Below are positions 7,103 through 25,176 of a stretch of 51,950 bases of DNA, piece after piece (within the stretch, counting starts at the first letter, position 1; the number at the start of each line of letters is the position of its first letter). Made by a program: the position numbers and the translations under genes. The stretch is from the NCBI GenBank assembly GCA_028278665.1, contig JAQAJI010000001.1, positions 1-51,950 on the forward strand, read 5' to 3'. The notes under the pieces were generated by a model. That model saw only the letters and a program-made list of their open reading frames with translations. It was not told the DNA's origin and ran no database searches. The stretch comes from Candidatus Rariloculus versatilis (GTDB lineage: Bacteria > Pseudomonadota > Gammaproteobacteria > Steroidobacterales > Rariloculaceae).

Positions 7103-8542
7103 ATGAAAAAAGCCGCCGTACTCGTGCTCATCAGCGTTGCCGCGGCGACAGTCGCGCTGCCACCCGTGTTCGGGATCATGACGGAATCGCTGTTCGAGCG
7201 GCGAATTGCGGAGATCAATGATCACACCGCGTGGTCTTTGGAAATCCGCTCATTCGAGCGGGGCTGGTTCAACAGCACTGCGATGATCGAGGTCAGCCTG
7301 GGCAATGAACGGTTCGGGCCGCTGGAGTCGGTGACCGGCGGCGACGCGCTGACAGCCGCGGGCCTGGATCTGCTCGACGAGGGACTTTCGGTCCTCGTCG
7401 ACGTGGCTCATGGTCCGGTCGTTCTGCGCGGCGGGCCGTATGTCGGGCTTGCGAGAGTCTGGGCACGCCCCGATTCGACGCAAGCTGACGTCGCCGAACT
7501 CGAAGGCGGTCTCGGCGTTGACTACCTGTTCGAGTTTCGGGGAAGAGCCAGCTTGTTCGGCGGCCTGCGGTTCGATGCCGACGTGCCCGCCGTTGACTAC
7601 GCGGACGAATTCAGCGAGACCGTGTTCTCGGGCGTGCGGGCCGACGGCCGCCTTGACCGCGACGAACTCCAGTTGCGTCTCGACATCGATTCGGTGGCCT
7701 GGTCGAACCCGATTCTCGCGATCTCTGTCGACACGATCAGCTTGAGTACCGACAGCGAGTACCGCCTGGGCTACCTGGGGCTGGGCAACCTCGAGCTGGA
7801 GATGGGTCAGATGCTGGTCGTGAACCGGACGCTCGGCGGCGAACCGGTCTTCGAAGCGGGAAACATTGCCGTTCGAGGCGAGTCGGATCCGGCCGGCGAA
7901 GGAACGCTCCTTGCGAGTTCCGCGACGTACACAGCCGACTACCTCACCTTTGGCGAACGGTACCGTCTCACGGACGCGCAGATCGTCATGGCGATCGACA
8001 GGCTTGACGCTGAGGCAATGAACGACCTGGTCGAAGCGCAGACGCAGTTCGAAGAGCAGGCTGCGGCAGGGGGCGATCCGATGCCCGTGCTGATGCCACT
8101 GATCGTGCGCCTGCTCGCGGCCGAACCTGAACTGTCGATCGATCCGATCGGATTCGCGATGGACGAGGAACCGTTCCAGGCCAGCGTTCATGTACGAACC
8201 CACGCCGACGCACTGCCGGACCCGGTATCGGCGCTCGCCGCGAGCCCCGTGCTATTCATCGACGCGTTCACTCTCGAAGCCGAAGCCACCGCCTCGCGGG
8301 CACTCGCGCGGCGCATCGCGACCGAGGTCGTCAGGCAGCAACTCGCGGCAAATGCGCCCGGTGGAGTCGTGCTGAGCGGTATCGAAGCGATGGCCGAGGC
8401 GCAGGCCGCTGCGATGCTGGACGCCGTGGTCGCGCAGGGATTCCTGGTCGAGGACGGCGACTCCTACCGTGTCGCGGTCGAGGTCGTGAACGGGGAGTTC
8501 AGTCTGAACGGCCGCCCCTTGCCGTTTCTGTCGTTGCGCTGA
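7103..8542 (+). CDS. DUF945 (YdgA) family protein
   Basis: MKKAAVLVLISVAAATVALPPVFGIMTESLFERRIAEINDHTAWSLEIRSFERGWFNSTAMIEVSL: signal anchor plus the typical DUF945 N-terminal pattern. Confidence 0.75.
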   Translation: MKKAAVLVLISVAAATVALPPVFGIMTESLFERRIAEINDHTAWSLEIRSFERGWFNSTAMIEVSLGNERFGPLESVTGGDALTAAGLDLLDEGLSVLVDVAHGPVVLRGGPYVGLARVWARPDSTQADVAELEGGLGVDYLFEFRGRASLFGGLRFDADVPAVDYADEFSETVFSGVRADGRLDRDELQLRLDIDSVAWSNPILAISVDTISLSTDSEYRLGYLGLGNLELEMGQMLVVNRTLGGEPVFEAGNIAVRGESDPAGEGTLLASSATYTADYLTFGERYRLTDAQIVMAIDRLDAEAMNDLVEAQTQFEEQAAAGGDPMPVLMPLIVRLLAAEPELSIDPIGFAMDEEPFQASVHVRTHADALPDPVSALAASPVLFIDAFTLEAEATASRALARRIATEVVRQQLAANAPGGVVLSGIEAMAEAQAAAMLDAVVAQGFLVEDGDSYRVAVEVVNGEFSLNGRPLPFLSLR

Positions 8543-8560
8543 GCGCGCCAGGGACCGCCA

Positions 8561-8721
8561 GGAGCCTGCGCCGCAGGAGTTCACGGCTGCAAGTCCGCTC
8601 TCATCCGCCCCGACGCTCGATCGGTTGAGGAGAATATCGAGCCCTATTTGATGAAACCGATCGCGCAACGGGACGGCGATATCGGATTCTCGCTTTCGTG
8701 ACTTCCTACGGCGCAGGCTCC
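8561..8721. repeat. Dispersed palindromic element, copy 2 (with ~95-bp internal insert)
   Basis: Left arm ggagcctgcgccgcaggagt, right arm acttcctacggcgcaggctcc; central ttcacggctgcaagtccgct shared with 469-534; insert carries its own CGATCGGTT/AACCGATCG inverted repeat (8618-8626/8655-8663). Confidence 0.7.
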
Positions 8722-9218
8722 CGATCCGATTCGGCCGGCTCCTCCTCGACATCTTCGGGCGGCAGCTCGACCTCTTCGATCTCGATGACGTCGTCCTGTT
8801 CCACTTCGCCCTCGGCAATCCGCTCGATCTCTTCGGCCTCTTCTGTGGAGATCGGATGAAACTCGCCGAGCCTGCACGTAAAGCCGCGACCGAATCCCGC
8901 GCCGATACGGTCGAGAACCGAAATCGTATCGATGTCGCAGAGGCGGTAGCCCCGGATCTCGTACATGAAGCGGCCCTCGCGTTCGAGCCGCGGACACTCC
9001 CTTTCCAGAATGTTCTGATAGACCCGCCCGCCGCGCATGTAGAAGAGAATCGTCTTGTCGTCGACGATCCGTGTTCTTCGGATTCGGCTCACCATGACGC
9101 AATCCGCGGGCGTCCGGTCGAGCACGTCGTCGTCCTGGGCTGCGAGCGGCAGGCTCGGGACCGATGCGCCGAGCGCTACGGACGAAATCATCAGGCTCCA
9201 CTGGATTGCGCTGCGCAT
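8706..9218 (-). CDS. Hypothetical secreted protein with acidic C-terminal tail
   Basis: MRSAIQWSLMISSVALGASVPSLPLAAQDDDVLDRTPADCVMVSRIRRTRIVDDKTILFYMRGGRVYQNILERECPRLEREGRFMYE...EIEEVELPPEDVEEEPAESDREPAP. Confidence 0.7.
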   Translation of the reverse strand: MRSAIQWSLMISSVALGASVPSLPLAAQDDDVLDRTPADCVMVSRIRRTRIVDDKTILFYMRGGRVYQNILERECPRLEREGRFMYEIRGYRLCDIDTISVLDRIGAGFGRGFTCRLGEFHPISTEEAEEIERIAEGEVEQDDVIEIEEVELPPEDVEEEPAESDREPAP

Positions 9219-9337
9219 GGCTGCTCCGCTTGTCGTTGCTGGTCTCGGTGTTCGACTCCTCTTATACCGCAATGGTTTCCCGGCGCAAATCCGCGCGGCC
9301 TTGTGCAGTCCCTGACCCGCGCTATGATTCGCGCACG

Positions 9338-10393
9338 ATGACCATGAGCGACACCGCAGCCGCAACGCCGGACAGCGCGGTACTTGCAGCATTCGGCCTC
9401 GCGGCCGACACGCTCGAAGCCACGAACTCCGGCCTGATCAACCGCAGCTGGTTTGTGCGATCGACTGACGGCAAGCCGCTTGTGCTGCAGCGCGTGAACG
9501 CCATCTTCGCTACGCAAACGAATGCTGACATCGACCTCGTCACGCGTCACCTGCACTCCAGGGGGCTCGTGACACCAATGCTTGTTCCGACCCGCTCGGG
9601 CGCGCTTTGGCTTGAGATCGGCGAAACGGTCTGGCGCGTCCTGACGCGCATCGACGGCGTCATCCACGACTCGACCGAATCGCCCGCGCGCGCGGCCGAA
9701 GCTGGCCGCATCCTCGGAGAGTTTCACGCCGCCCTCGGCGACCTCGAGCACCACTTCGCCAACGCACGTCTCGGCGTTCACGACACGCAACGTCACCTCG
9801 CCAATCTGCGCTCTGCGCTGGCTGCCCAAACGGCGCACCGGCGTCATCGGACGATCGCAGGTCTCGCAGCCGAAATCGAGAATTTTGCCAAAGAACTCAC
9901 GCCGCAGCCGCAGGTTGCCGATCGGATCGTGCACGGTGACCCGAAGCTCGAGAACATCATGTTCGACCGGGACACGCAGCGCGCCGTGTGCATGATCGAT
10001 CTCGACACATTGACAATAATGCCCGCCGCGATCGAAATCGGCGACGCACTGCGATCCTGGTGCAATCCCGCCGCCGAAGATTCCGCCGATGCGGACTTCT
10101 CTGTCGAACTCTACGAGGCGGCGGTGGAAGCCTACGCGGCGGCGTCCCGCGGGCTGCTCGGAGCAGCCGAGTGGCGCTGCATTCCCGACGCCGCGTTCGC
10201 TATCGCCGTCGAACTCGCCGCCCGGTTCTGTACCGACGCGTTCGAAGGAAGCTACTTCGCCTGGGATGCGCGCCGAAACGTAAGCGCCGCCGAACACAAC
10301 GAAGCCCGTACGCGCGCTCAGCTCGCGGTTGCCGCCGGCATGCGGCGGGAACGCGCCCGTATGCAACTGCTCGTCGAGAACGTCTTCGGGTAA
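9338..10393 (+). CDS. Aminoglycoside phosphotransferase/choline-kinase-like family protein
   Basis: MTMSDTAAATPDSAVLAAFGL..NSGLINRSWFV, VHGDPKLENIMFDRDTQRAVCMIDLDTLTIMPAAIEIGDALRSW (HGDxxxxN, IDxD motifs). Confidence 0.82.
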   Translation: MTMSDTAAATPDSAVLAAFGLAADTLEATNSGLINRSWFVRSTDGKPLVLQRVNAIFATQTNADIDLVTRHLHSRGLVTPMLVPTRSGALWLEIGETVWRVLTRIDGVIHDSTESPARAAEAGRILGEFHAALGDLEHHFANARLGVHDTQRHLANLRSALAAQTAHRRHRTIAGLAAEIENFAKELTPQPQVADRIVHGDPKLENIMFDRDTQRAVCMIDLDTLTIMPAAIEIGDALRSWCNPAAEDSADADFSVELYEAAVEAYAAASRGLLGAAEWRCIPDAAFAIAVELAARFCTDAFEGSYFAWDARRNVSAAEHNEARTRAQLAVAAGMRRERARMQLLVENVFG

Positions 10394-10553: not shown

Positions 10554-11885
10554 ATGCTCGAACAACTCGGAATGATCGGTGTGACGTGGCGTCAGGGCGG
10601 CGCTGAATCGCTCGCCGAATTCGCGCTGCCGCATGACGGCGCCGAAGAACGCCTGCGCGCGTTCGCCGTCGAGCTTGGTCTTGCCGAACTGGCCTATCTG
10701 TCGACCTGCAACCGCGTGGAACTCGTCTATGCGCACGGCGAACGTACCGCCGCCACCGACATCCGGCCGGCGGCGTTCAAATTGCTCGCCGGGCGCGAGC
10801 CTTCGTCCGGCGAGGCGACGCGGCGCCTGCGGGCCTGGCAGGGCGAAGGCGCGGCCGAGCATCTGTTCCTGATCGCAGCGGGCCTCGATTCGGCCTGCGT
10901 CGGGGAGACCGAGATCGTCGCCCAGGTGCGAAGCTGCCACGAGCGATCGACGCGGCTCGGCCTGTCCGGAGCGGCTCTCGAACTGCTGTTCGGGGAAGCG
11001 CTCAGGATCGCCGCTCGCGTTCGCGGCGAGACGTCGCTCGGCGCCGGGCGCGTGTCGCTCGCCGAAATCGCCGTTGCGCGGCTGCGCGAACGCCTGGCGC
11101 GTACCACGGGCACGGTCGCACTGGTTGGCGTTTCGGCAATGACGGAGCGTGCCGCCATCTCGCTGAGCGCCGCTGGCGTCCCGCTGGTCGTTGTCAATCG
11201 CTCGGCGGAACCGGCACAGGCGCTCGCCGATCGTTTTGGCGCCGTATGGCAATCGCTCGATGCGTTCCGGGCCGAACCTGCGCCCGTGGAGGCCGTGCTG
11301 GCTGCGACGGCCGCTCCCGGCCCGGTGTTCGAACGTGCGGACCTCGAACGCATTGCCGCGCGCACGCCCTCGGGCGAACCGCCGTTGATCGTCGACATGG
11401 CCGTGCCGCCCGATGTCGATCCGGCGGCCTGCACGAAGCTCGCGATCCCGCGCGTCGGCATGGATGAAATCGTCGCGCACGCCGAGCGCAACCGGGCCGC
11501 GCGGCTCATGGAGGCCGCCGAAGCGCGCGAGCAGGTCGACCGGGCGCTCGCAACGCTCAAGGATCGATACACGGAACGGTACTACGGACCGCTCTTCGGC
11601 GCGCTGCAGAAACGCTATCGGATTACCGCCCAGGAGGGAGTGAAACGCCTCTTCAGGAAGGAGCTGAAAGGGCTCGGCGAAGAGGAACGCGCCGCGGTCG
11701 AAATCTGGTGCGAAGTTCTTGCGAGGCGGTTCGCACACATCCCCTCCCTCGGCCTGCGCGGCCTGCTTCACTCGGGTCCGGAAGGCTCCGTTGAAGCCTT
11801 TCTCGGCGGTCTGGATCCCGAGTTTGCCGACGAACTCAGAGCGGCGCTCGAAGTCGGCGCGACCGGGCGCGAGTCAGGATCATGA
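10554..11885 (+). CDS. hemA: Glutamyl-tRNA reductase (divergent)
   Basis: YLSTCNRVELVY, GLDSACVGETEIVAQVRSCHERS, VDMAVPPDVDPAACTKLAIPRVGMDEI; first gene of hem cluster. Confidence 0.88.
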   Translation: MLEQLGMIGVTWRQGGAESLAEFALPHDGAEERLRAFAVELGLAELAYLSTCNRVELVYAHGERTAATDIRPAAFKLLAGREPSSGEATRRLRAWQGEGAAEHLFLIAAGLDSACVGETEIVAQVRSCHERSTRLGLSGAALELLFGEALRIAARVRGETSLGAGRVSLAEIAVARLRERLARTTGTVALVGVSAMTERAAISLSAAGVPLVVVNRSAEPAQALADRFGAVWQSLDAFRAEPAPVEAVLAATAAPGPVFERADLERIAARTPSGEPPLIVDMAVPPDVDPAACTKLAIPRVGMDEIVAHAERNRAARLMEAAEAREQVDRALATLKDRYTERYYGPLFGALQKRYRITAQEGVKRLFRKELKGLGEEERAAVEIWCEVLARRFAHIPSLGLRGLLHSGPEGSVEAFLGGLDPEFADELRAALEVGATGRESGS

Positions 11886-12814
11886 AGCTTCGGCTTGGCA
11901 CGCGGGCGTCGGACCTTGCCCGCACGCAGTCCGAAGCCGTCGCGCGATTCCTGGACGACGCGGGTTTCACGACCGAGCTCATGTTCATCCGCACGGCCGG
12001 CGACCGTTCGAATGCTGCATCGTTCGGCTCGATCGGCCCGCAGGGCGTGTTCGTGCGCGAAATCGAGCAGGCGCTCCTCGCCGAGACGATCGATCTCGCC
12101 GTGCACTCGTTCAAGGACCTGCCGACCCGTTCGCCGCCGGAACTCAGCGTCGCGGCAGTCCCGGAGCGAGCCGATGCGGCGGACGTCCTCATCGTCACGG
12201 ACGAGGCGCTCGATCGAAACGCCGGCTCGCTTCTGCCTCTGATCGAGCAGGCGCATGTCGGCACGGCCTCGGCTCGGCGCCGCGTCTGGCTCGAACACTT
12301 TCGCCCGGATCTGCGCGTTGAATCGCTGCGCGGCAACGTCCCGACCCGCATAAGGCGGCTCAGGGAGCGGCGCTGCGACGCGATCGTGCTGGCCGCTGCC
12401 GGCGTCGAGCGGCTGCGCAGCTCGACCGACGTGCTCGAACCGCTGCTCGAGGGACTGGCGGTCCTGCGGCTGGATCCGGAGCTGTTCGTACCGGCGCCGG
12501 CGCAAGGCGCCCTGGCCGTCCAGTGCCGGCGCGACAATGCCGAGGTCACCGCCGCGCTCCGGAGATTCGACGACATCTCGAGCCGGACCGCCGTTTCCAC
12601 CGAGCGCGCCGCGCTCGCACTCGCGGAGGGCGGTTGCGACATCGCGTTCGGGGCGTACTGTCAGCGTGCGGGCAGCGGATTCGAACTCATCGCGATGCTC
12701 GAACGCGACGGCCGGGTCCGCAGCTCAAGGGTTGCCGGCAGCGACGCCGCCGCGCTTGCAGACAAGGCCTGGACGGAACTCGCCATGCGTCGTGACGATC
12801 ATGCGGAAAGCTGA
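11882..12814 (+). CDS. hemC: Hydroxymethylbilane synthase (porphobilinogen deaminase)
   Basis: MKLRLGTRASDLARTQSEAVARFL, AVHSFKDLPT, ESLRGNVPTRIRRL, VPAPAQGALAVQCRRDN, GGCDIAFGAYC. ATGA overlap with hemA. Confidence 0.95.
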   Translation: MKLRLGTRASDLARTQSEAVARFLDDAGFTTELMFIRTAGDRSNAASFGSIGPQGVFVREIEQALLAETIDLAVHSFKDLPTRSPPELSVAAVPERADAADVLIVTDEALDRNAGSLLPLIEQAHVGTASARRRVWLEHFRPDLRVESLRGNVPTRIRRLRERRCDAIVLAAAGVERLRSSTDVLEPLLEGLAVLRLDPELFVPAPAQGALAVQCRRDNAEVTAALRRFDDISSRTAVSTERAALALAEGGCDIAFGAYCQRAGSGFELIAMLERDGRVRSSRVAGSDAAALADKAWTELAMRRDDHAES

Positions 12815-13592
12815 CGGCAAGCGAGTCGTGCTGACTCGAAGCGCAGGGGACTGCGCCGACTGGGCGAGACGACTCGAAGCGCTCGGCTTAACGCCCGTGA
12901 TCGTGCCGTGCATCGACTGCGAGTTTCTCAGCGAGCCTGCACTCGCGCTAACGCTGAGCAAAAGCGTTCGCGAAGCGGATTGGCTCGTGTTCACGTCGCG
13001 GCGGGGCGTGGAGGCATTCGCGTCGCTGCACGAGACCCCTCTGCCCGGTCGCATGAAGATCGCGGCCGTGGGCAAGGCCACCGCGGCCGCGGCCGAAGCG
13101 CTGCTCGGGCGGATCGACCTGACCGGTCGCGGCGCAACGGCGGCCGCGCTCGCCGACGATATACAATTCGCGCTCGCGCGCGGAGCGCCGGACAGTGAAG
13201 CCGCCGCGGCTGCGGGACCGGACAAGCGCGATCGGGGCAGGCAGGAGCGGCTGCTGCTCGTGCTCGCCGAGAACGCGGCCGGAACACTCGAGCGGAAGCT
13301 CGGGCGCACCGGCATCTCCCGGAGCCGGGTGAACGTCTACAGAACGGTACCGACACCGCCGACGGGCGACAAGATTCTGCTGTCGTCGCTCGCCGCCGAC
13401 GGTGTTTTTCTCGCGAGTCCGACGGCCGTCGAGGGTTTCGTGAATCGCGTGGACGTCGACGTGGCGCCGAAGCTCATCACGATCGGGCCATCGACTTCGG
13501 CGGCCGTGCGGGCGCGGGGGCTCGATGTCGCGGCCGAGGCCCGCGCGCCGGGGCTCGACGGATTGCTGGAGGCCATGCAATGTCTGAGTTGA
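12801..13592 (+). CDS. hemD: Uroporphyrinogen-III synthase
   Basis: MRKADGKRVVLTRSAGDCADWARRLEALGLTPVIVPCIDCEF..DWLVFTSRRGVEAF; ITIGPSTSAAVRARGL; overlaps hemC and hemB. Confidence 0.85.
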   Translation: MRKADGKRVVLTRSAGDCADWARRLEALGLTPVIVPCIDCEFLSEPALALTLSKSVREADWLVFTSRRGVEAFASLHETPLPGRMKIAAVGKATAAAAEALLGRIDLTGRGATAAALADDIQFALARGAPDSEAAAAAGPDKRDRGRQERLLLVLAENAAGTLERKLGRTGISRSRVNVYRTVPTPPTGDKILLSSLAADGVFLASPTAVEGFVNRVDVDVAPKLITIGPSTSAAVRARGLDVAAEARAPGLDGLLEAMQCLS

Positions 13593-14581
13593 TCATTACG
13601 ACACCGGAACGAGTCCGGCCGAGACGCCTGCGCCGGACTCCCGCGCTAAGGAATCTCGTGGCGGAAACCGACATCTCGGCCGCGCAGCTTGTCATGCCGC
13701 ATTTCGTCCTGCCGACGAGCGAATCCGAGGTGCCGATCGCGTCCATGCCGGGGATCTCCCAACTCGGGATCGAGACGCTCGTCGGCCGTGTCGAGTCCGA
13801 CCTCGCGCTCGGCATCCGTGCGGTGCTGCTTTTCGGTCAGCCGCACGACGGCGGCAAGACCCCGGACGGCACCGCCGCGGCCGCTGCCAATGGCGCGGTG
13901 CAATCGGCCGTTCGCCGGCTCAAGGGAGCATTCGGAGATTCGCTGGTCGTCATGACGGACGTTTGCCTTTGCGCCTACACCGATCACGGCCACTGCGGCG
14001 TGCTCGGCGACGGCGAAGTCGCAAACGACCCGTCGCTGCGCCCGCTCGTCGATGCGGCGCTGAGCCACGCCGAGGCCGGGGCCGACGTGGTCGCACCGTC
14101 AGACATGATGGACGGTCGCGTGGCCGCGATCCGCGATGCGCTCGACGAGTCCGGCCGCGACAACGTCGTCGTCATGGCGTACGCGGTCAAGTACGCCTCG
14201 GCCTACTATGGGCCGTTCCGCGACGCCGCAGATTCGACCCCGGGCATGGGCGATCGCAAGAGTTACCAGATGGACTGCCGCAATGTGCGCGAGGCGATTC
14301 GCGAAGCCGATCTCGATGCGGAGGAAGGCGCGGACCTCGTGATGGTAAAGCCGGCGTTGCCGTATCTGGACGTGATCCGCGCGGTTCGCGAGACGTCGGA
14401 CCTGCCTCTCGCGGCCTATAACGTTTCCGGCGAATACTCAGCCGTGAAGGCCGCCGCCGCGAACGGCTGGCTCGATGAGCCGAGCATCGTGCGCGAAAAC
14501 CTGCTGGCCATCAGGCGCGCCGGCGCGGATCTCATCATCAGCTACCACGCCCGCGATACGCTGGCCGGAGGCTGGCTGTGA
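13580..14581 (+). CDS. hemB: Delta-aminolevulinic acid dehydratase (porphobilinogen synthase)
   Basis: RPRRLRRTPALRNLVAET, TDVCLCAYTDHGHCGVL, VAPSDMMDGRVAAIR, MAYAVKYASAYYGPFRDAA, VKPALPYLDVIR, YNVSGEY. Confidence 0.96.
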   Translation: MSELIITTPERVRPRRLRRTPALRNLVAETDISAAQLVMPHFVLPTSESEVPIASMPGISQLGIETLVGRVESDLALGIRAVLLFGQPHDGGKTPDGTAAAAANGAVQSAVRRLKGAFGDSLVVMTDVCLCAYTDHGHCGVLGDGEVANDPSLRPLVDAALSHAEAGADVVAPSDMMDGRVAAIRDALDESGRDNVVVMAYAVKYASAYYGPFRDAADSTPGMGDRKSYQMDCRNVREAIREADLDAEEGADLVMVKPALPYLDVIRAVRETSDLPLAAYNVSGEYSAVKAAAANGWLDEPSIVRENLLAIRRAGADLIISYHARDTLAGGWL

Positions 14582-14654
14582 CCGCCGCGACGCAGTCGCA
14601 AGCACCGGCGCGCCGGCGCGCAATGCAGCCTCCGTCGCGCTCGGGAGGCCGGTC

Positions 14655-15974
14655 GTGACGGCGGGAACGCAATCGCGGGCCTGGTTCGAGCGCGCCAGGG
14701 CCGCGTTGCCCGGGGGCGTCGACTCGCCCGTGCGAGCCTTTCGCGCCGTCGGCGGCACGCCCATCGTGATTCAGGGCGCGAACGGTCAGACCATCGTCGA
14801 TGTCGACGATCGCCCCTATCTCGACTTTGTCGGATCCTGGGGGCCGCTGATCCTCGGCCACGCTCATCCGAAAGTGGTCGCCGCCATCGAGGCGGCCGCG
14901 CGCGGCGGCACCTCCTACGGCGCGCCATGCCGGGCCGAGATCGAGCTTGCCGAGCAGGTCGTAGAGAGCTACCCCGGGATCGAGCAGGTGAGGTTCGTGT
15001 CGTCGGGCACCGAAGCGGTCATGAGTGCGGTCCGACTCGCACGCGGCGCGACGGGCCGCGATCTGATCGTCAAGTTTTCCGGTTGCTATCACGGTCATGT
15101 CGATCATCTGCTCGTCGCCGCGGGCTCGGGCCTCGTCACGTTCGGCAAACCGTCGTCAGCCGGTGTACCGGCCGACTTCGCCGGACTGACACGCGTACTG
15201 CCGCTCGACGACGAAGCGGCGCTCGACGCGCTCTTCGCGGCCGAAGGCGACCGCATCGCGGCCGCGATCATTGAACCGGTACCCGCCAACAACGGACTCC
15301 TGATGCAGCGCCCGGCATTCCTCAAGGCCCTGCGCGCGCATTGCGATGCCTTCAGTGCGCTGCTGATCTTCGACGAGGTCATCACCGGCTTCAGGCTCGG
15401 ACCGGGCGGCGCCGCGGCGCACTACGGTCTCGTCCCCGACCTCGCGACCTTCGGCAAGGTCATCGGCGGCGGCATGCCCGTGGGCGCTTTCGCCGGTCGC
15501 CGCGAGCTCATGCGCGAACTCGCGCCCGAGGGCAGCGTCTATCAGGCCGGCACGCTGTCGGGCAACCCGGTCGCGATGGCGGCGGGGCTGGCGACCCTGG
15601 ACGTGCTTCGGGAATCCGATGGCTGGCAGGCTCTCGATGAGCGTGGCCGATATCTCGAGCAGGTTATCGGCGAGGCGTTGCGCGAGAGCCCGTTCCCGGC
15701 ATCGCTTGCCCGGATCGGCTCGATATTCTGGATCGCGCTCTTGGCGAGCGCGCCGCCGCGCACGGCGGAGGCCGTCGGTCCCGCTTCGGGCAAAGCCTAC
15801 GCAAACCTGTTTCATTCGCTGCTCGGGCAAGGCATCGCGCTTGCGCCGTCGGCCTATGAGGTCGGCTTTCTGTCGCTGGCGCATTCGCGCGCGGACATCG
15901 ACCGCCTCGGCGAGGCTCTTCGCGTGGCGCTGGCCGACGCGAATCCCGGCGAACCAACCGACGATCAGGCATGA
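14655..15974 (+). CDS. hemL: Glutamate-1-semialdehyde 2,1-aminomutase
   Basis: GTG start proposed; ARAALPGGVDSPVRAFRAVGGTP, SSGTEAVMSAVRLARGATGRDLIVKFSGCYHGHVDHLLVAAGSG, IFDEVITGFRLGPGGAAAHYGLVPDLATFGKVIGGGMPVGAFAGR, GTLSGNPVAMAAGL. Confidence 0.95.
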   Translation: MTAGTQSRAWFERARAALPGGVDSPVRAFRAVGGTPIVIQGANGQTIVDVDDRPYLDFVGSWGPLILGHAHPKVVAAIEAAARGGTSYGAPCRAEIELAEQVVESYPGIEQVRFVSSGTEAVMSAVRLARGATGRDLIVKFSGCYHGHVDHLLVAAGSGLVTFGKPSSAGVPADFAGLTRVLPLDDEAALDALFAAEGDRIAAAIIEPVPANNGLLMQRPAFLKALRAHCDAFSALLIFDEVITGFRLGPGGAAAHYGLVPDLATFGKVIGGGMPVGAFAGRRELMRELAPEGSVYQAGTLSGNPVAMAAGLATLDVLRESDGWQALDERGRYLEQVIGEALRESPFPASLARIGSIFWIALLASAPPRTAEAVGPASGKAYANLFHSLLGQGIALAPSAYEVGFLSLAHSRADIDRLGEALRVALADANPGEPTDDQA

Positions 15975-16070
15975 TCCCGACAAGCAACATGGCGAGCCTG
16001 CCGACGACCGGACACGATCCCGGTATGCAACGCACCGAGCCTGCCGATGATTAGGCGCGATCCCAGCAAG
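15958..16070 (+). repeat. 43-bp tandem repeat (about 2.6 copies) spanning the hemL stop / kinase start
   Basis: Units CCGACGATCAGGCATGATCCCGACAAGCAACATGGCGAGCCTG (15958-16000), CCGACGACCGGACACGATCCCGGTATGCAACGCACCGAGCCTG (16001-16043), CCGATGATTAGGCGCGATCCCAGCAAG (16044-16070). Confidence 0.8.
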
Positions 16071-17126
16071 GCCCTGCAGGTGGGCTTCCTCGTACTGCTG
16101 ACCATCTCCACGGCGCAGGTGGCCTACTGGATCATCGAGAACGTCGCGTATACGCGTGACGTGCAGCGGCGGTTCGCAGCGCTCTACGCGGCGGACGCGG
16201 CGGCCGTTGCGGTGTTGTCGGAAGACTCCGGCACAGCCGCACCGGTCGAGTTGTTCCCCCACGTAGAGGTCTCGCCGGACACGGGCGTCGCGACCGTGAG
16301 CGCCGACGCACTCGCCGAGCTCGAGCGCGAAAGTGCCCGCCGCACGAACCAGTACGTCTGGGAGGGCGCGTTCTTTCTCATCGTGCTGCTCGGCGGGATG
16401 GGCGTGCTCACGCGCGCGATTCGCCACGATGCACAACTGCGCAGGCGTCAGCAGAACTTCCTCGCGGCAGTCTCGCACGAGTTCAAGAGTCCCCTCGCGA
16501 GCATCCAGCTCGCCGCGGAGACGATCCAGTTGCGGGCCGCGGGGGCGGACAGCAAGCGGCTCGCCCAGCGCATCGTCGAAGACGGCGAACGCCTGCTGCG
16601 CATGGTCGACAATCTGCTTGACACCACGCGACTCGAGGAAGGCCGTCACGAGTTGACTCCGCAACGGACCGCACTCGCCGCGGCCGTACGCGCGAGCGTC
16701 GAGGAAATCGCCGAACGTGCCGAGCGCAACGGGATTTCGGTCGAGGTCGACGTGCCCGAACCACTGACGCTCTCGGTGGACAAGACGGCACTCGAATCGA
16801 TACTTCGCAACCTGCTCGACAACGCCGTCAAGGCCTGCATCGCCGGCGACGGGCGGGAGATCGCCGTGCGGGCCGGACAGGACGACGCCGCGATCGAACT
16901 CAGCGTGAGCGACGACGGGCGCGGTTTCGCGCCGGAGGACTCCGCGATGATTTTCGAAAAGTTCTACCGCCTCGGCGACGAACTCAGGCGCTCGGGTCCC
17001 GGCACGGGTCTCGGGCTCTACATCGTCCGGCGGCTCGCCGAACTTTCCGGCGCCGGGATCGAAGCCCGCAGTGACGGCCCGGGACAGGGCGCGACCGTGA
17101 CGATCCGCTGGCCGGCAGCGAAATGA
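16047..17126 (+). CDS. Membrane sensor histidine kinase
   Basis: Two hydrophobic segments flanking a ~70-aa extracytoplasmic region; H-box FLAAVSHEFKSPLASIQ; N-box LRNLLDNAVK; G-boxes DDGRGF, GTGLGLYIVRRL. Confidence 0.93.
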   Translation: MIRRDPSKALQVGFLVLLTISTAQVAYWIIENVAYTRDVQRRFAALYAADAAAVAVLSEDSGTAAPVELFPHVEVSPDTGVATVSADALAELERESARRTNQYVWEGAFFLIVLLGGMGVLTRAIRHDAQLRRRQQNFLAAVSHEFKSPLASIQLAAETIQLRAAGADSKRLAQRIVEDGERLLRMVDNLLDTTRLEEGRHELTPQRTALAAAVRASVEEIAERAERNGISVEVDVPEPLTLSVDKTALESILRNLLDNAVKACIAGDGREIAVRAGQDDAAIELSVSDDGRGFAPEDSAMIFEKFYRLGDELRRSGPGTGLGLYIVRRLAELSGAGIEARSDGPGQGATVTIRWPAAK

Positions 17127-17866
17127 ATGAAAGCCTGACACAAGCGGCGCGCATTCTCGTCGTCGACGACGAAGCGCATCTGGCCGACGGGATCCGGGAA
17201 AACCTCGAAGCCGAAGGCTATTTGACCGAAGTCGCGTACGACGGCCGCCAGGGCTTCGACGCGGTGCTCGACGGCAACTTCGACCTCCTCGTGCTCGATG
17301 TCATGATGCCGAAGATGGATGGCGTGGAGTTGTGCGCGAGGCTGCGCGCGCAGGGCCACCAGACCCCGGTACTGTTTCTGACGGTCAAGAACGCAGCGGA
17401 AGACCGCGTTCGCGGCTTTGAGGCCGGTGGCGACGATTATCTTGGAAAACCGTTTCATCTGAAGGAATTGCTTCTCCGTGTCGAGGCGATTCTGCGACGC
17501 GGCCGCTGGTACGACACGGCGTCCGCGGCGCTCGAATTCGGCGGCAACCGCGTGGATTTTCGAACCTATCAGGCGCGCGCCTGGGATGGCAGGCAGCATG
17601 CGCTCACGCACAAGGAAGCCATGATCCTGAAGGCGCTGTCCGAGCGCGAGAGCGGCGTCGTCACCCGCGAGGAGATCCTCGATCGCGTCTGGGGCTACGA
17701 GGTTTTTCCTTCGACGCGCACGATCGACAACTTCATCGTGCGCCTGCGCAGGCGATTCGAGCGCGATCCCGAGTTGCCCGTCCATTTCCACACCGTTCGC
17801 GGCGTGGGTTACCGCTTTACCGTGAAGGCGGAAGCGGCCGGTCACGAGGCTGATCCCGGTGGCTGA
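17123..17866 (+). CDS. OmpR/PhoB-family response regulator
   Basis: ARILVVDDEAHLADGI, LLVLDVMMPKMDG, GGDDYLGKPFHLKELLLRV; winged-helix VVTREEILDRVWGYEVFPSTRTIDNFIVRLRRRFE. ATGA overlap with kinase gene. Confidence 0.95.
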   Translation: MNESLTQAARILVVDDEAHLADGIRENLEAEGYLTEVAYDGRQGFDAVLDGNFDLLVLDVMMPKMDGVELCARLRAQGHQTPVLFLTVKNAAEDRVRGFEAGGDDYLGKPFHLKELLLRVEAILRRGRWYDTASAALEFGGNRVDFRTYQARAWDGRQHALTHKEAMILKALSERESGVVTREEILDRVWGYEVFPSTRTIDNFIVRLRRRFERDPELPVHFHTVRGVGYRFTVKAEAAGHEADPGG

Positions 17867-18896
17867 GCTGCTGCTGGATGCGCTCAGCCGCGTGCCGACC
17901 GCGCGGCGACCGGTATGGATCATGCGCCAGGCGGGCCGCTACCTGCCCGAGTACCGCGAGTTCCGCAAGAGTCACAGCTTCAAGGCGCTGTCAGGCAACA
18001 GCGAGCTCGCGGCCGAGGTCACGCTGATGCCGCTGAAGCGCTTCGAACTCGACGCGGCCATCGTCTTTGCCGACATCATGAGCCCGATGCCCGCGCTCGG
18101 CATCGACTTCGACTTCGATCCGGGCCCCGTCGTCGCCAATCCGATTCGGGACCGGCGCGGCGTCGAGCGTCTCCATGACCCCGATCCGGACGATGTCGCT
18201 CCCGAGGTCATGGAAGCGCTCCGGATTACGCGCGGCGCGCTTGCCGACAACGTCGCCTTGCTCGGGTTTTGCGGCGCCCCGTGGACCCTGGCTGCCTATC
18301 TCGTCGAAGGCCGCGGCGTGAAGGATTTTCCGACGCTGCGCGCCTTCGCCGCGGAACGGCCCGGGCTGCTCGACACACTGCTGTCGCGCCTGTCGGACCT
18401 CATGGGCCGCTATCTGATCGCGCAGGCCGAAGCCGGCGCCGACGCGGTCCAGATTTTTGACTCCTGGGCGGGACTATTGTCATTGGCGGACTGGCAGAGG
18501 TTCATCAGGCCGCACCTTCAATCGCTGCTCGAGACGGTCGGCGCCGCCGGCATACCGCGCATCATGTTCGTACAGAACGCACCGCACCTCATTGACGCCT
18601 ATGCGAAGCTGCCGGCCGAAGCGATCGCGACCGACTGGCGCATGGACCTGGCTGCGTTGCAGCGGGACCATGCCGAGCGCGCTGTACAGGGCAACATCGA
18701 TCCGGCAGTGCTGCTGGCCGGACCCGAGGCAACCGCCGGGCGCGTGCGGCAACTGCTCGACAGCGTCGCCCCGACCGGCCATATCGTCAATCTGGGTCAT
18801 GGCATTTTGCCGAGCACGCCGATCGCGAGCGTCGAGGCACTGGTCGAAACCGTGCATGCAGAGGTCAAGCCCGATATCGCCGCAAGCCGCGCCTGA
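17859..18896 (+). CDS. hemE: Uroporphyrinogen decarboxylase
   Basis: RRPVWIMRQAGRYLPEYREFR, IVFADIMSPMPALGIDFDFDPGPVVANP, FCGAPWTLAAYLVEG, IFDSWAGLLS, NLGHGILPSTPIASVEALVETVH; GTG start overlapping the RR gene. Confidence 0.97.
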   Translation: MAELLLDALSRVPTARRPVWIMRQAGRYLPEYREFRKSHSFKALSGNSELAAEVTLMPLKRFELDAAIVFADIMSPMPALGIDFDFDPGPVVANPIRDRRGVERLHDPDPDDVAPEVMEALRITRGALADNVALLGFCGAPWTLAAYLVEGRGVKDFPTLRAFAAERPGLLDTLLSRLSDLMGRYLIAQAEAGADAVQIFDSWAGLLSLADWQRFIRPHLQSLLETVGAAGIPRIMFVQNAPHLIDAYAKLPAEAIATDWRMDLAALQRDHAERAVQGNIDPAVLLAGPEATAGRVRQLLDSVAPTGHIVNLGHGILPSTPIASVEALVETVHAEVKPDIAASRA

Positions 18897-19081
18897 AACA
18901 GAAGACGACCTACCCCGGAAATTTCAGCAAGCGGTACCTTGCATGGAAAATCGCCGATGATTTTCAGCGGCGTGGGCGATAATAACGGTATGCGCGCAGG
19001 TGACAGTTTGCGCTGGCCGCGCCCTCGCTGGTCTTTTGCGCGCAGCGCTGGCCTCGTCGAGCGGGATGTCGTCTGCGACGC

Positions 19082-19840
19082 ATGGCACAAGAGTCTGGAG
19101 CAGGAATGAACACATCAACCGCAAAACAAGGTTCCGCCCCGGCGCCGCTCGATCTCAGCGAAAAGGGCATGAGCCATGGCCAGGTGACATCGCTGGACCG
19201 GCGGCTCTTCATGAAGTTCACAGCTTTCGGTGTATGCCGCAACGCGAAGGCCGCGGCCGATGCGCTCGAAACCGCAGACATCGAAGCTGCGCTTTACGTC
19301 GACGCGAACGACCCCGCGGGCATCGGCGTGATGGCGGCTCACGAAGATCCCGGCCACTTCGTGGACGAGCTGCGTGCCGTGTTTCAGGGACCGGCGTTTC
19401 GCGAACTTGAACACAAGCCCGAGTTCGACATGCTCGGCCGCAGTTACTCGATCGGGTACGAACCGGATCTCGAAGACACGCTGCTGGTCAAGCCGCGGCA
19501 GAAACTTCTCAATCCCGAGTTCGTCTGGGCGGTCTGGTATCCGCTGCAGCGTTCCAAGAAATTCCAGACCTTGCCGGCCGATCACCAGCGGCGGATTCTC
19601 GCCGAACACGGGACGCTTGCGAAGCGTTACGGCGTAGCGGGTTACGCCGCGGACATCCGCCTCGCCTGCCACGGCCTCGACCGGAACGACAACGACTTCA
19701 TCATCGGGCTGGTCGGACCGGAGCTCCACCCGCTGTCGGCCGTGGTGCAGGAGATGCGCAAGACCGAGCAGACGTCGCAGTACCTCGACAGCCTCGGACC
19801 GTTCTTCGTCGGCAGGACGTTCTGGCAACGCAAGGCCTGA
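19082..19840 (+). CDS. chdC: Chlorite dismutase family protein, candidate coproheme decarboxylase ChdC/HemQ
   Basis: LMKFTAFGVCRNAKAAADALE...DMLGRSYSIGYEPDLEDTLLVKPRQKLLNPEFVWAVWYPLQRSKKFQTLPADHQRRILAEHGTLAKRYG...MRKTEQTSQYLDSLGPFFVGRTF: WYP-x-x-R-S, AEHG and FFVG motifs as in ChdC proteins; between hemE and the ferrochelatase gene. Confidence 0.82.
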   Translation: MAQESGAGMNTSTAKQGSAPAPLDLSEKGMSHGQVTSLDRRLFMKFTAFGVCRNAKAAADALETADIEAALYVDANDPAGIGVMAAHEDPGHFVDELRAVFQGPAFRELEHKPEFDMLGRSYSIGYEPDLEDTLLVKPRQKLLNPEFVWAVWYPLQRSKKFQTLPADHQRRILAEHGTLAKRYGVAGYAADIRLACHGLDRNDNDFIIGLVGPELHPLSAVVQEMRKTEQTSQYLDSLGPFFVGRTFWQRKA

Positions 19841-19989
19841 CCGCTCCGTGAACGCGCCACCCGCCAGCGTAGCCGTGTCGCATCGTCCGCAGCGGTCGAT
19901 GGAGGTCGGATCCGAGTTGCTGGCACACTCGTCGCCATCGCACTCATGCCGTACCCTGCGCAGCCGGCGATGGCGGAGTTGACGGGCCG

Positions 19990-21078
<1,089 letters not shown>

Positions 21079-21307
21079 CGGTCCGTGGAAGTACGCCGCG
21101 CGCCGCCGGAACGGGCGAAACACCCGCCCGACAAGGCGCAAGGAAAGACAATACCGAACGCGGGAAGCCGGCCATGATCGAGCGACGAGCAACCCGGTTC
21201 GGGCAGCATGCATCGCCGGTCGATCAACCGCTTTGGGCGCAACGGTCCTGCCCCCGACGCGGCGGGGCAATCCTCGCCGGTACCCGGACGCCGGTCGACG
21301 CCGTGGC

Positions 21308-22675
21308 ATGAGCGCAGCCTTCTCGCACGACGTTGTTGTGGTCGGCGCCGGACTCGCCGGTCTGAACGCGGCGACGCGCCTCGAGGCCGAAGGCGTCGAC
21401 GTCCTCGTGCTCGAGGCCCAGGCCCGCGTCGGCGGGCGGATTCATTCGATGCGTCGGCTCGGCAGGAACGCCGAGGCCGGCGGAACCTACATCGGCGCGG
21501 GGTACAAGCGAGTCATTGCAACAGCCGCACGCCACGGCATCAGGCTCATCGACGTTACACGGGCGCTTGAGTTCTTCCGCGAACAGGACCTCGTGCTCGG
21601 CACGGAGATCATCCGCCAGGCCGAATGGCCCGATCATCCGGCGAACCCGTTTCCCGAGGGCGACAGGGCCCTGATGCCGTGGAGCTATCGCCGCGTGCTG
21701 CCGATGCGCGAGAACCCGCTCGGCTCGCCCGATGAGTGGCTCGACCCGAAGCACGCGTATCTCGACATCTCGATGCGCGACTGGATGCGCGGGCTCGGCT
21801 TGAGCGACGCGGCGATCGACATCGCTTACTCGCGCAACTCGACCTTCGGCGCGGACGCGGCGGACGTCTCCGCACTGCTGCTGCTGTTTCGGGCCGCGTT
21901 CTCGCGCGCGCAGCGCGCGCTTGCACCGAAAGGCACGCTCGGCTACACGGCCGCCAACGGTGTTGAGAGCATCCCGGCGGCGATGGCCGAATCGCTGCGT
22001 CGTGCCGTGCGACTGGAAAGCCCCGTGGTCGCGATCGACAGCGGCAAGGGTGCCGCGGTCGTTCACTGTGCCGACGCAAGCCGCATCCGGGCGCGACGTG
22101 TCGTTTTTGCGGCGCCTTTCGGTGTACTGCGCAACATCCGGATCGACCCGCCGCTCGCAGGCCTGCAGGCGGAAGCGGTCGATCGGCTGCGCTCCCAGGC
22201 CATCACGCAGGTCTATCTGCGCCCGAAAACGCCGTTCTGGGAACTGGATGGCTACGCGCCGAGCCTGTTCACCGATTCACTGCCGGGAATGGTCGCCGCA
22301 GCCCGGAGCGGCAGCGACCCTTCCGAAATCACGCACCTGACGGCCTGGCTCACGGGCGCCCATGCCACCGGGCTCGACGGGCTCGGTGAAGCCGAGGCGG
22401 GCCAGCGCGTCATCGATGCGATCGCAGCGATTCGTCCGGCCGCGCGCGGCCAGCTCGAATTCATCGGTCTTCACTCCTGGAGCGGCGATCCCTGGGCCGC
22501 CGGCGCCTGGGCCTGGTTCGGTCCCGGTGAAGTCACGCGCTACGCACCGGTCATGGGCAGTCCCCACGAGCGAATCCACTTCTGCGGCGAACACCTGGCG
22601 CTCGCCAGCCGCGGCATGGAAGCGGCCATGGAATCCGGAGAACGGGCGAGCATCGAGATTCTCGCGCAGCTCTGA
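21308..22675 (+). CDS. FAD-dependent amine oxidase-like flavoprotein; candidate porphyrinogen oxidase by context only
   Basis: DVVVVGAGLAGLNAATRLEAEGVDVLVLEAQARVGGRIHS; EAGGTYIG; C-terminal RIHFCGEHLALASRGMEAAMESGERASIEIL (monoamine-oxidase-like FAD site). Confidence 0.85.
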   Translation: MSAAFSHDVVVVGAGLAGLNAATRLEAEGVDVLVLEAQARVGGRIHSMRRLGRNAEAGGTYIGAGYKRVIATAARHGIRLIDVTRALEFFREQDLVLGTEIIRQAEWPDHPANPFPEGDRALMPWSYRRVLPMRENPLGSPDEWLDPKHAYLDISMRDWMRGLGLSDAAIDIAYSRNSTFGADAADVSALLLLFRAAFSRAQRALAPKGTLGYTAANGVESIPAAMAESLRRAVRLESPVVAIDSGKGAAVVHCADASRIRARRVVFAAPFGVLRNIRIDPPLAGLQAEAVDRLRSQAITQVYLRPKTPFWELDGYAPSLFTDSLPGMVAAARSGSDPSEITHLTAWLTGAHATGLDGLGEAEAGQRVIDAIAAIRPAARGQLEFIGLHSWSGDPWAAGAWAWFGPGEVTRYAPVMGSPHERIHFCGEHLALASRGMEAAMESGERASIEILAQL

Positions 22676-22954: not shown

Positions 22955-23740
22955 ATGAGTGCCCTGCCAAGCGCAGTAGCGGTAAACGCCCCGGCCGACC
23001 TGACGGTCGACCTGGCGTTGTACGATGAGGAGGCGACACGCGCTCATGCGCTCGATCACTGCAACCGCAAGTTCCAGTCACTCGATGCGCAGGAGCGCGT
23101 GGAGTGGGCGCTCGAACACCTGCCGGGCACCCACGTGCTGTCATCGAGTTTCGGAACCCAGGCGGCGGTCTCGCTGCATCTCGTCACGAGCGTAAGTCCC
23201 GGCATCCCCGTCATTCTGATCGATACAGGATACCTGTTTCCCGAGACCTATCGCTTCGTCGACGAGTTGACCGAGCGGCTCCAACTGAACCTCAAGGTGT
23301 ATCGCGCCGAACGTTCGACAGCGTGGCAGGAAGCGCGTCACGGGCAGCGCTGGAGCCTCGGTCGCGACGGGATCGACGCATACAACCAGGAGAACAAGGT
23401 CGAGCCGATGCGGCGCGCGCTGCGCGAACTCGAAGCGGGAACCTGGTTTGCGGGGCTGCGGCGCATCCAAAGCGAGGGTCGCGCGTCAACGCCGTATCTC
23501 AACTGGTCGGGCGGCCGCTGGAAAGTGCACCCGATCGCGGATTGGTCCGATCGGGACGTGCACCGCTATCTCGAGCAGCACCGCCTGCCGAGGCACCCGC
23601 TATGGGAAAAGGGCTTCCTGTCGATCGGCGATCACCACAGCACGCGGCCGATCCACGAGGCCGGCTCGCTCGAGCAGACGCGTTTCTTCGGCCTCAGACG
23701 CGAGTGCGGGATTCACCAAATAGATTTCGGCAAGCTCTGA
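22955..23740 (+). CDS. cysH: Phosphoadenylyl-sulfate (PAPS) reductase
   Basis: [103 protein letters not shown]; no CC pairs of the APS-type FeS cluster. Confidence 0.94.
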
Positions 23741-23944
23741 GCCCGGGTGGTGGGTTGCGAAACCTCGCATCGCACCGAAACCGGCGCCGCGCCGCCCCGA
23801 AAAGGCGAGCTGATCCGGAATATGGAGCGTATTTCAGCTACGAGCGAAGCAGTTCAGGCTGTGTGAATCGTCGGTTGATCGGAGGTCTTCCCACCCTGTC
23901 CAGTGGATCCTTGCCACGGGAGGCCAGCTAGGCCACCCGCGGCG

Positions 23945-24955
23945 TCACGCTGCCGCCGCCTCGTCCTGCTCGCAACCTCCACGTACCGGCAGGACCATTT
24001 CCCCAAGCAGCGTATCGACCTCGTCCTGCGTCGAGAGCGCGGCCGCGTCGCGGATGGCATGCGCCGAATAGTGCGGCGCAAACAGATGGATGAAATCGGT
24101 CATGTAGCCGCGCAGCACCATGTCGCGCGGGAAGCCGAGCCACGTCGTGACTTCGGGAAACAGTCCCTCGGCATTGATGGCCTTGAGATCTTCCTGGTCG
24201 CGGCACTCGTACGCCATCGACGCGATGACGCCGACGCCCATGCCCATGCGCACGTAGGTCTTGATGATGTCCGCATCGCGCGCGGTAAACACGACACGCG
24301 GTTCGAGGCCGAGGTCGTGGAAGGCGCGCTTGAATGACGATTCCCCGGTCAGGCTGAACACGTAGGTCACGAGCGGGTGCTCGGCGAGCGTTTCAAGGTC
24401 GAGCCGCTTCTTCTGTCTGGCAAGCGCGTGCTGCCTCGGCACGAGCGCGATGCGATGCCAACGGTATATCGGCAGCAGGGTCAGGTGCCGAAACAGGTGT
24501 TGGGACCCCGTCGCGATCGCAAAGTCGACCTTGTTCTGGTTGACGAGTTCGAGAATCTGCTCCGAGGTGCCCTGATGCAGTTCGAGACTGACCTTCGGAT
24601 AGCGTCTGCGGAATTCCTTGATGACATCGGGCAATACGTAGCGTGCCTGGGTATGCGTCGTCGCGATCGACAGCGTGCCTTCCTGCTCGTCCGTGAGATC
24701 GCTCGCAACGCTCGAGATGTTCTCGACCTCGCGCAGTATCTTGCGGGCTCGCGCGATCACTTCGCGGCCAGCCGGCGTTATGGCCGCGAGGCTCTTGCCG
24801 CGCCGCGTGAACAACTGCACGCCGAGTTCCGCCTCAAGCTGCTTGAGCTGTTTGCTGATCCCCGGTTGGCTCGTAAACAGCCGCTCGGCGGCCGACGTGA
24901 TGTTAAGCCCGCTGTCGACGACACCGATCAGGTACTTGAGCTGCTTAAGTGTCAC
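23945..24955 (-). CDS. cysB: LysR-family transcriptional regulator CysB
   Basis: GTG start proposed; VTLKQLKYLIGVVDSGLNITSAAERLFTSQPGISKQLKQLEAELGVQLFTRRGKSLAAITPAGREV; IATTHTQARYVLPDVIKEFRRRYPKVSLELHQGTSEQI. Confidence 0.92.
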   Translation of the reverse strand: MTLKQLKYLIGVVDSGLNITSAAERLFTSQPGISKQLKQLEAELGVQLFTRRGKSLAAITPAGREVIARARKILREVENISSVASDLTDEQEGTLSIATTHTQARYVLPDVIKEFRRRYPKVSLELHQGTSEQILELVNQNKVDFAIATGSQHLFRHLTLLPIYRWHRIALVPRQHALARQKKRLDLETLAEHPLVTYVFSLTGESSFKRAFHDLGLEPRVVFTARDADIIKTYVRMGMGVGVIASMAYECRDQEDLKAINAEGLFPEVTTWLGFPRDMVLRGYMTDFIHLFAPHYSAHAIRDAAALSTQDEVDTLLGEMVLPVRGGCEQDEAAAA

Positions 24956-25176
24956 TTCGATGCCCGAGTGTATTGCGACAGGAAAACGGAGTTTTCTTCG
25001 GCGGTGTCGACGGTCGCCGCATGCCGCCACGTGCGCGTTCCGCACTGTCAATCAACGTTCTCATATCGGTACATTAACCGTTATAGCGCCTGAGCATAAG
25101 GCCCGAAGCATAAACTGTTGGTTTGGGATAGATGTCCCGAGTATCCTGACTCGCGGGTCACGAACGATTGTCCGCC

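Follow-up and report, generated by a model that had tools for sequence, protein, structure and literature searches.

Within a 51,950-nucleotide stretch of Candidatus Rariloculus versatilis (GCA_028278665.1, contig JAQAJI010000001.1, positions 1–51,950; hereafter the window), a single block of genes very probably encodes a complete pathway from glutamate to heme that runs through coproporphyrin. Eleven collinear genes, all on the + strand, occupied positions 10554–22675 in the order hemA-hemC-hemD-hemB-hemL-histidine kinase (HK)-response regulator (RR)-hemE-chdC-cpfC-flavin adenine dinucleotide (FAD) oxidase. The coproporphyrin route is known mainly from Gram-positive bacteria, and the host belongs to the gammaproteobacterial family Rariloculaceae (hereafter the host family). 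A sequence-only reading of the window had proposed both this gene order and a coproporphyrin-dependent pathway. All eleven genes were found in that order and on that strand, and the pathway assignment was strongly supported by the missing classical enzymes, the fold, the key residues and the trees. Gene content and order, conservation in the host family, the family traits of coproheme decarboxylase (ChdC) and coproporphyrin ferrochelatase (CpfC) and the lack of classical enzymes were all obtained by computation.

The host assembly is a 2.9-Mb metagenome-assembled genome (MAG) with a completeness of 92%, of which the window is contig 1. No match to HemF, HemN, HemJ or Flavodoxin_5 (HemG) was found in this genome, nor any HemY/CgoX match over the TIGR00562 cut-off (97.85). 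Its sole match to the chlorite dismutase (Cld)/ChdC family was the protein encoded in the block. Such a match occurred once in each of the 22 host-family genomes (22/22), whereas HemN and HemY/CgoX exceeded their cut-offs in none of them (0/22 each). HemF was detected in one of the 22 (G019), a MAG whose contamination is 5%; the contig that carries it has 3,356 bases and is probably a contaminant. Two of the 22 had HemG-family matches over cut-off, a weak one and one that lies within a 923-aa frame. In the sister families of the order (36 genomes), ChdC over cut-off was absent, and HemF, HemN and HemJ were present in 28, 17 and 19 genomes, respectively. The hemE-chdC-cpfC-oxidase module was also found in 16 further proteobacterial MAGs outside the host family (one labelled Acidobacteria), in which HemF, HemN, HemJ, HemG and CgoX each scored 0/16 over cut-off. 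Two of these 16 are single contigs of 5,069,597 and 5,089,713 bases (OY282447 and OY282433, respectively). A gap in a MAG was therefore rejected as the cause of the missing enzymes, since the whole host family and two single-contig chromosomes of ~5.1 Mb agree. The search for a hemF/hemN plus hemG/Y/J set, which had been suggested as a check, was negative at all three levels (host genome, host family, single-contig chromosomes). With HemF and HemN missing, a route to protoporphyrinogen would be lacking. Heme might still be obtained by another route, such as a protoporphyrin-dependent pathway with unrecognised enzymes, a siroheme/Ahb route or uptake, with chdC-cpfC being accessory. MAG incompleteness and the nearby cysG (25168–26616) would be compatible with this, but HemF and HemN were lost throughout the host family while ChdC was present throughout, the two single-contig chromosomes showed the identical pattern, and hemE and cpfC lie within one block; we consider such a route very improbable.

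The same survey yielded two side observations. Four genomes of the order, G032, G045 and G056 (family f12) and G023 (family f3), 82–95% complete, lacked HemF, HemN, HemJ, ChdC and HemY over the cut-offs and may use some other heme route or depend on heme. HemW-like matches (~130–145 bits to TIGR00538) were found in four of the 22 host-family genomes, whereas most of the order's other families have them, and HemW seems to have been largely lost in the host family too.

The Cld/ChdC-family protein matched PF06778 with 52 bits (cut-off 25). Its AlphaFold model had a predicted local distance difference test score (pLDDT) of 82, and Foldseek ranked solved ChdCs first (Streptomyces, Corynebacterium, Listeria, Geobacillus), with chlorite dismutases following later. 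Four residues (Y145, R149, H168 and R218) were invariant in 22 ChdC sequences. In the alignment, Y145 coincides with the catalytic Tyr (Y135 of the Corynebacterium enzyme, Cd; Y147 of the Listeria enzyme, Lm), R149 and R218 match the spacing of R139 and R208 of the Corynebacterium enzyme, and H168 corresponds to the proximal ligand. Roles for the catalytic Tyr, the propionate Arg/Lys and the proximal His have been described (PMC7611857, PMC9953210); in Clds, Ile takes the place of the catalytic Tyr (PMC7611857). The Pfam family name, together with an invariant Arg (R185) two residues off the aligned distal position, could point to a chlorite dismutase or another kind of peroxidase. The invariant Tyr at the Cld Ile position, the two invariant propionate Arg, the ChdC-first fold ranking and the place of the gene in a heme operon throughout the host family make this exceedingly unlikely, and a Cld function was rejected. 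The predicted ChdC identity thus fits fold and key residues, and also the tree, in which the proteobacterial ChdCs formed one group apart from other phyla with a support of 100 in the Shimodaira–Hasegawa-like approximate likelihood ratio test (SH-aLRT; quick tree, unrooted). The subfamily as a whole spans Acidobacteriota, Planctomycetota, Gemmatimonadota, Chloroflexota and others.

The best solved relative of the ferrochelatase was a CpfC (244 bits). Identity was 46–48% to actinobacterial CpfC and 22.6% to Pantoea HemH. In a tree made with a quick method and showing long branches, so that the exact sister relation is unsure, proteobacterial and actinobacterial CpfC were joined (99 SH-aLRT), far from the HemH of E. 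coli and Pantoea. The earlier assignment of this protein to the CpfC type agrees with this placement. The residues C132, C338, C342, C343, H194 and E275 were invariant in the host family, H194 and E275 being catalytic. Judged by sequence, the four cysteines appear to be of the kind that binds [2Fe-2S], as in the actinobacterial type. [2Fe-2S] ferrochelatases have the C-terminal spacing motif C-X(1,11)-C-X(1,11)-C (PMC8529089); here, C342 and C343 are adjacent, and the motif is completed only by a Cys in the C357 region that is not quite invariant. The description of the pathway as 'Gram-positive type' therefore holds for CpfC, which is actinobacterial in type with [2Fe-2S] cysteines, but not for ChdC, whose subfamily is a diderm one.

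Over its full length, the flavin oxidase had monoamine oxidase (MAO) B as its best sequence match, and its best fold matches were of the MAO type. A profile search gave MAO-B at 183 bits, with no protoporphyrinogen oxidase (PPO) or CgoX among the best 60 matches, and neither was present among the best 50 fold matches. Against TIGR00562, the window protein scored 37.6 bits (cut-off 97.85), the best stretch covering residues 7–72. A profile of true CgoX matched the B. subtilis CgoX (3i6d) at 463 bits. In hhalign, the oxidase aligned with CgoX at an E-value of 1.4e-15, and CgoX with PgoX at 1.7e-87. Based on the MAO-B best match, the absence of PPO/CgoX from the top sequence and fold matches and this separation in hhalign, a divergent CgoX was rejected; by these comparisons, the oxidase is related to CgoX at the superfamily level only.

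The oxidase gene was located directly 3′ of cpfC in 35/35 assessable loci, often with a start/stop overlap of 4 or 1 bp, and the gap between the two was mostly −4 to +4 bp. MAO residue positions, assigned from one pairwise alignment, indicated that the catalytic Lys position varies (K/R/A/N), that the Tyr435 position is Gly in 33/33 oxidases, and that there is no Cys at the covalent-FAD position. The variable Lys and the Gly at position 435 argue against ordinary amine oxidation. Five arginines of the oxidase (R129, R195, R333, R376 and R435) are invariant. Given the altered MAO site, the constant place next to cpfC and the absence of CgoX from exactly these genomes, this protein is the strongest candidate for the coproporphyrinogen oxidase that is otherwise missing, and it probably fills the step from coproporphyrinogen III to coproporphyrin III. 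We also lean towards its being an independently evolved coproporphyrinogen III oxidase from the amine-oxidase family that replaces CgoX, HemG, HemJ and CgoN, in a module of mixed descent (diderm ChdC, actinobacterial-type CpfC). Alternatively, the pathway may be coproporphyrin-dependent with coproporphyrinogen oxidised either spontaneously in air or by an enzyme that is not linked to the block, the MAO-type oxidase being occupied elsewhere (for example with H2O2 for ChdC or a porphyrin-related amine). The amine-oxidase-like sequence and fold and the existence of non-heme homologues are consistent with this, and porphyrinogens autoxidise, with background oxidation in air (PMC10965808). We nevertheless regard it as unlikely, given the constant position after cpfC, the altered Lys and Tyr435 positions and the distribution of alternatives: the module genomes lack CgoX and nearly all lack HemG/HemJ, whereas all eight tested bacteria of other phyla with this ChdC subfamily carry a true CgoX (261–321 bits).

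Several observations weigh against the reading of the block as a complete coproporphyrin pathway with its own oxidase. The host assembly is a MAG, and only 92% complete. ChdC scored far below the NCBI HemQ models (39.5 bits, cut-off 235) and so falls beyond the HemQ groups that are curated; because one model bears the name of Actinobacteria, the comparison is not a fair one for a diderm subfamily. Neither the actinobacterial distal His (no linker His is conserved) nor the Firmicute Gln was found in the ChdC alignment. An invariant D183 aligns at the Firmicute Gln position (sequence alignment only), and distal residues are reported to differ between ChdC clades (PMC7611857). Divergent HemJ-like proteins (61 bits) were encoded by three of the 22 host-family genomes (G001, G002 and G019), two of which belong to the host's own genus. 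These proteins (L055, L056 and L057) were very similar between two genera and were possibly transferred; with such a divergent protein in only 3/22 genomes, HemJ was rejected as the general oxidase. The oxidase itself resembles amine oxidases in sequence, and homologues with 36–39% identity were found on Novosphingobium megaplasmids (L159 and L160, ~8001–9280), where no heme gene was recognised among their neighbours. One of these megaplasmid homologues carried a Tat-like signal.

For the individual enzymes and their regulation, we infer the following scheme. HemA and HemL would form 5-aminolevulinate, HemB, HemC and HemD would convert it to uroporphyrinogen III, and HemE would yield coproporphyrinogen III. 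The MAO-type oxidase may then convert coproporphyrinogen III and O2 to coproporphyrin III and H2O2, after which CpfC would insert iron to give coproheme. ChdC, using H2O2 and a radical on Y145, would decarboxylate two propionates to give heme b. The cluster may be tuned to heme or to the envelope redox state by the embedded kinase-regulator pair. The block would thus work like a coproporphyrin-dependent pathway, as a variant with a MAO-type oxidase in place of CgoX.

The window flanks contained the lpxC-ftsZ-ftsA/dcw cluster, LpoA, rnpB and CysB and read as gammaproteobacterial, and the nearest named MAGs carry the label 'Gammaproteobacteria bacterium'. Depositor labels of the MAGs partly conflict, some host-family members being labelled Rhodospirillaceae and some of the 16 further genomes Alphaproteobacteria. 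Wherever the contig was long enough, the order of the block was repeated in other host-family genomes (28–97% protein identity), so the arrangement is not due to chance. A scan of a GTDB-based genome collection with the host-family ChdC alignment gave 80 loci. Apart from those of the host family and the 16 further proteobacterial MAGs, the loci (Acidobacteriota, Planctomycetota, Gemmatimonadota, Chloroflexota, others) carried a ChdC of this subfamily but lacked the neighbours seen in the module. When the class was sampled evenly (369 genomes, 272 genera), this ChdC occurred in the host genome only, and a plasmid search with ChdC gave one weak actinobacterial match only. Gene distances of hemE, chdC, cpfC and the oxidase correlated at 0.78–0.91 over 32 genomes (uncorrected for shared ancestry). 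Horizontal acquisition of the terminal genes or of the whole block had been suggested. Because the block is kept through the host family and is common to other proteobacterial lineages, and because the gene distances correlate, a recent import was rejected; any horizontal acquisition would have to be old.

Like the coproporphyrin-dependent pathway of Actinomycetota and Bacillota, the block combines HemE, CpfC and ChdC with an oxygen-type flavin oxidase and has no HemF/HemN. It differs in its gammaproteobacterial host, its diderm-subfamily ChdC, the MAO-type oxidase in place of CgoX, its completeness from hemA on and the embedded two-component system. The coproporphyrin genes of Acidobacteriota and Planctomycetota share the ChdC subfamily (52–59% identity) and are likewise found in diderms. 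In the eight sampled genomes of other phyla, the true CgoX is often beside a different cpfC (~31% identity), and chdC is usually apart from cpfC in other-phyla loci. The Cutibacterium acnes heme operon (PMC10427985), compared by its published description, is also a single locus, in an actinobacterial host. The reaction expected of the oxidase, in which a flavin enzyme removes six electrons from coproporphyrinogen III, is that of CgoX/PgoX (HemY) and CgoN (YtpQ); CgoN, a DUF1444 protein, is unrelated (PMC10965808). Compared with monoamine/putrescine oxidases, which are the best full-length sequence and fold matches, the candidate has an unconserved Lys, Gly at the Tyr435 position, no covalent-FAD Cys and a heme-operon context.

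Reviews name Planctomycetota and Acidobacteria as the only diderms in which most genomes were reported to have ChdC, and describe the protoporphyrin route as the one mainly encoded by Proteobacteria outside the Deltaproteobacteria (PMC10991733, PMC10740692). The pathway type is already known, and the oxidase class is possibly new. In the open-access papers searched, a scope that leaves out most subscription papers, no report was found of a gammaproteobacterial family in which the coproporphyrin pathway appears to be the only route. If true, a gammaproteobacterial family with its whole terminal route replaced would clearly exemplify the displacement of a pathway in the class of the textbook model E. 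coli. ChdC and CpfC would no longer be a 'Gram-positive-only' trait, which bears, for example, on proposals to target them with antibacterials. With the conserved MAO-type gene, there is a candidate for a new class of porphyrinogen oxidases that can be tested directly, and the kinase-regulator pair is a candidate heme regulator.

The features are listed in Table 1. HemA (below its TIGR01035 cut-off) and HemD are divergent in sequence, yet their identity is unambiguous. The overlaps noted by the sequence-only reading were confirmed, with lengths of 4 bp (hemA/hemC), 14 bp (hemC/hemD), 13 bp (hemD/hemB), 4 bp (HK/RR) and 8 bp (RR/hemE). Gaps were wide in this species at hemE-chdC (209 bp), chdC-cpfC (149 bp) and cpfC-oxidase (229 bp), while in other genera of the host family these four genes abut or overlap, typically at −4 or −1 bp. 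The start of hemL is most likely GTG 14655, that of chdC was revised to ATG 19106, and that of the oxidase is ATG 21308 rather than TTG 21233. Repeat and promoter/terminator scans of the intergenic gaps gave nothing informative, and an Rfam scan returned rnpB and a tRNA only.

Table 1. Coordinates of the heme block and its 5′ neighbour in the window, with the basis of each assignment.
Feature	Position	Strand	Basis
hemA, glutamyl-tRNA reductase (C5 route)	10554..11885	+	TIGR01035 194 bits (cut-off 209.6), PF05201
hemC, hydroxymethylbilane synthase	11882..12814	+	TIGR00212 254 bits (cut-off 164)
hemD, uroporphyrinogen-III synthase	12801..13592	+	PF02602 118 bits; start ATG 12801
hemB, porphobilinogen synthase	13580..14581	+	NF006762 459 bits (cut-off 297)
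hemL, glutamate-1-semialdehyde aminomutase	14655..15974	+	NF000818 570 bits (cut-off 398)
Sensor histidine kinase	16047..17126	+	HisKA and HATPase_c
OmpR-type response regulator	17123..17866	+	Response_reg and Trans_reg_C
hemE, uroporphyrinogen decarboxylase	17859..18896	+	TIGR01464 362 bits (cut-off 303)
chdC, predicted coproheme decarboxylase, diderm subfamily	19106..19840	+	PF06778, Foldseek, key residues
cpfC, predicted coproporphyrin ferrochelatase with C-terminal [2Fe-2S] cysteines	19990..21078	+	TIGR00109 152 bits (cut-off 124.6)
MAO-type flavin oxidase, candidate coproporphyrinogen III oxidase	21308..22675	+	MAO-B sequence and fold matches, place after cpfC
APH-like phosphotransferase, 5′ of hemA, possibly outside the pathway	9164..10393	+	PF01636 89 bits

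The HK-RR pair between hemL and hemE was conserved throughout the host family and in some of the 16 genomes of the second group. Hydropathy predicted two transmembrane helices in the kinase, with a short periplasmic loop of variable length. Among the matches listed, the pair did not exceed the curated cut-off of any named two-component system, and its suggested part in heme control is guessed from its position. The APH/homoserine-kinase-like gene was kept 5′ of hemA and was seen at seven host-family loci. On the 3′ side of the cluster (22955–26616), the window contained cysH, cysB (opposite strand) and the siroheme synthase gene cysG, as in several relatives; with cysG following the heme cluster, two branches from uroporphyrinogen III lie side by side.

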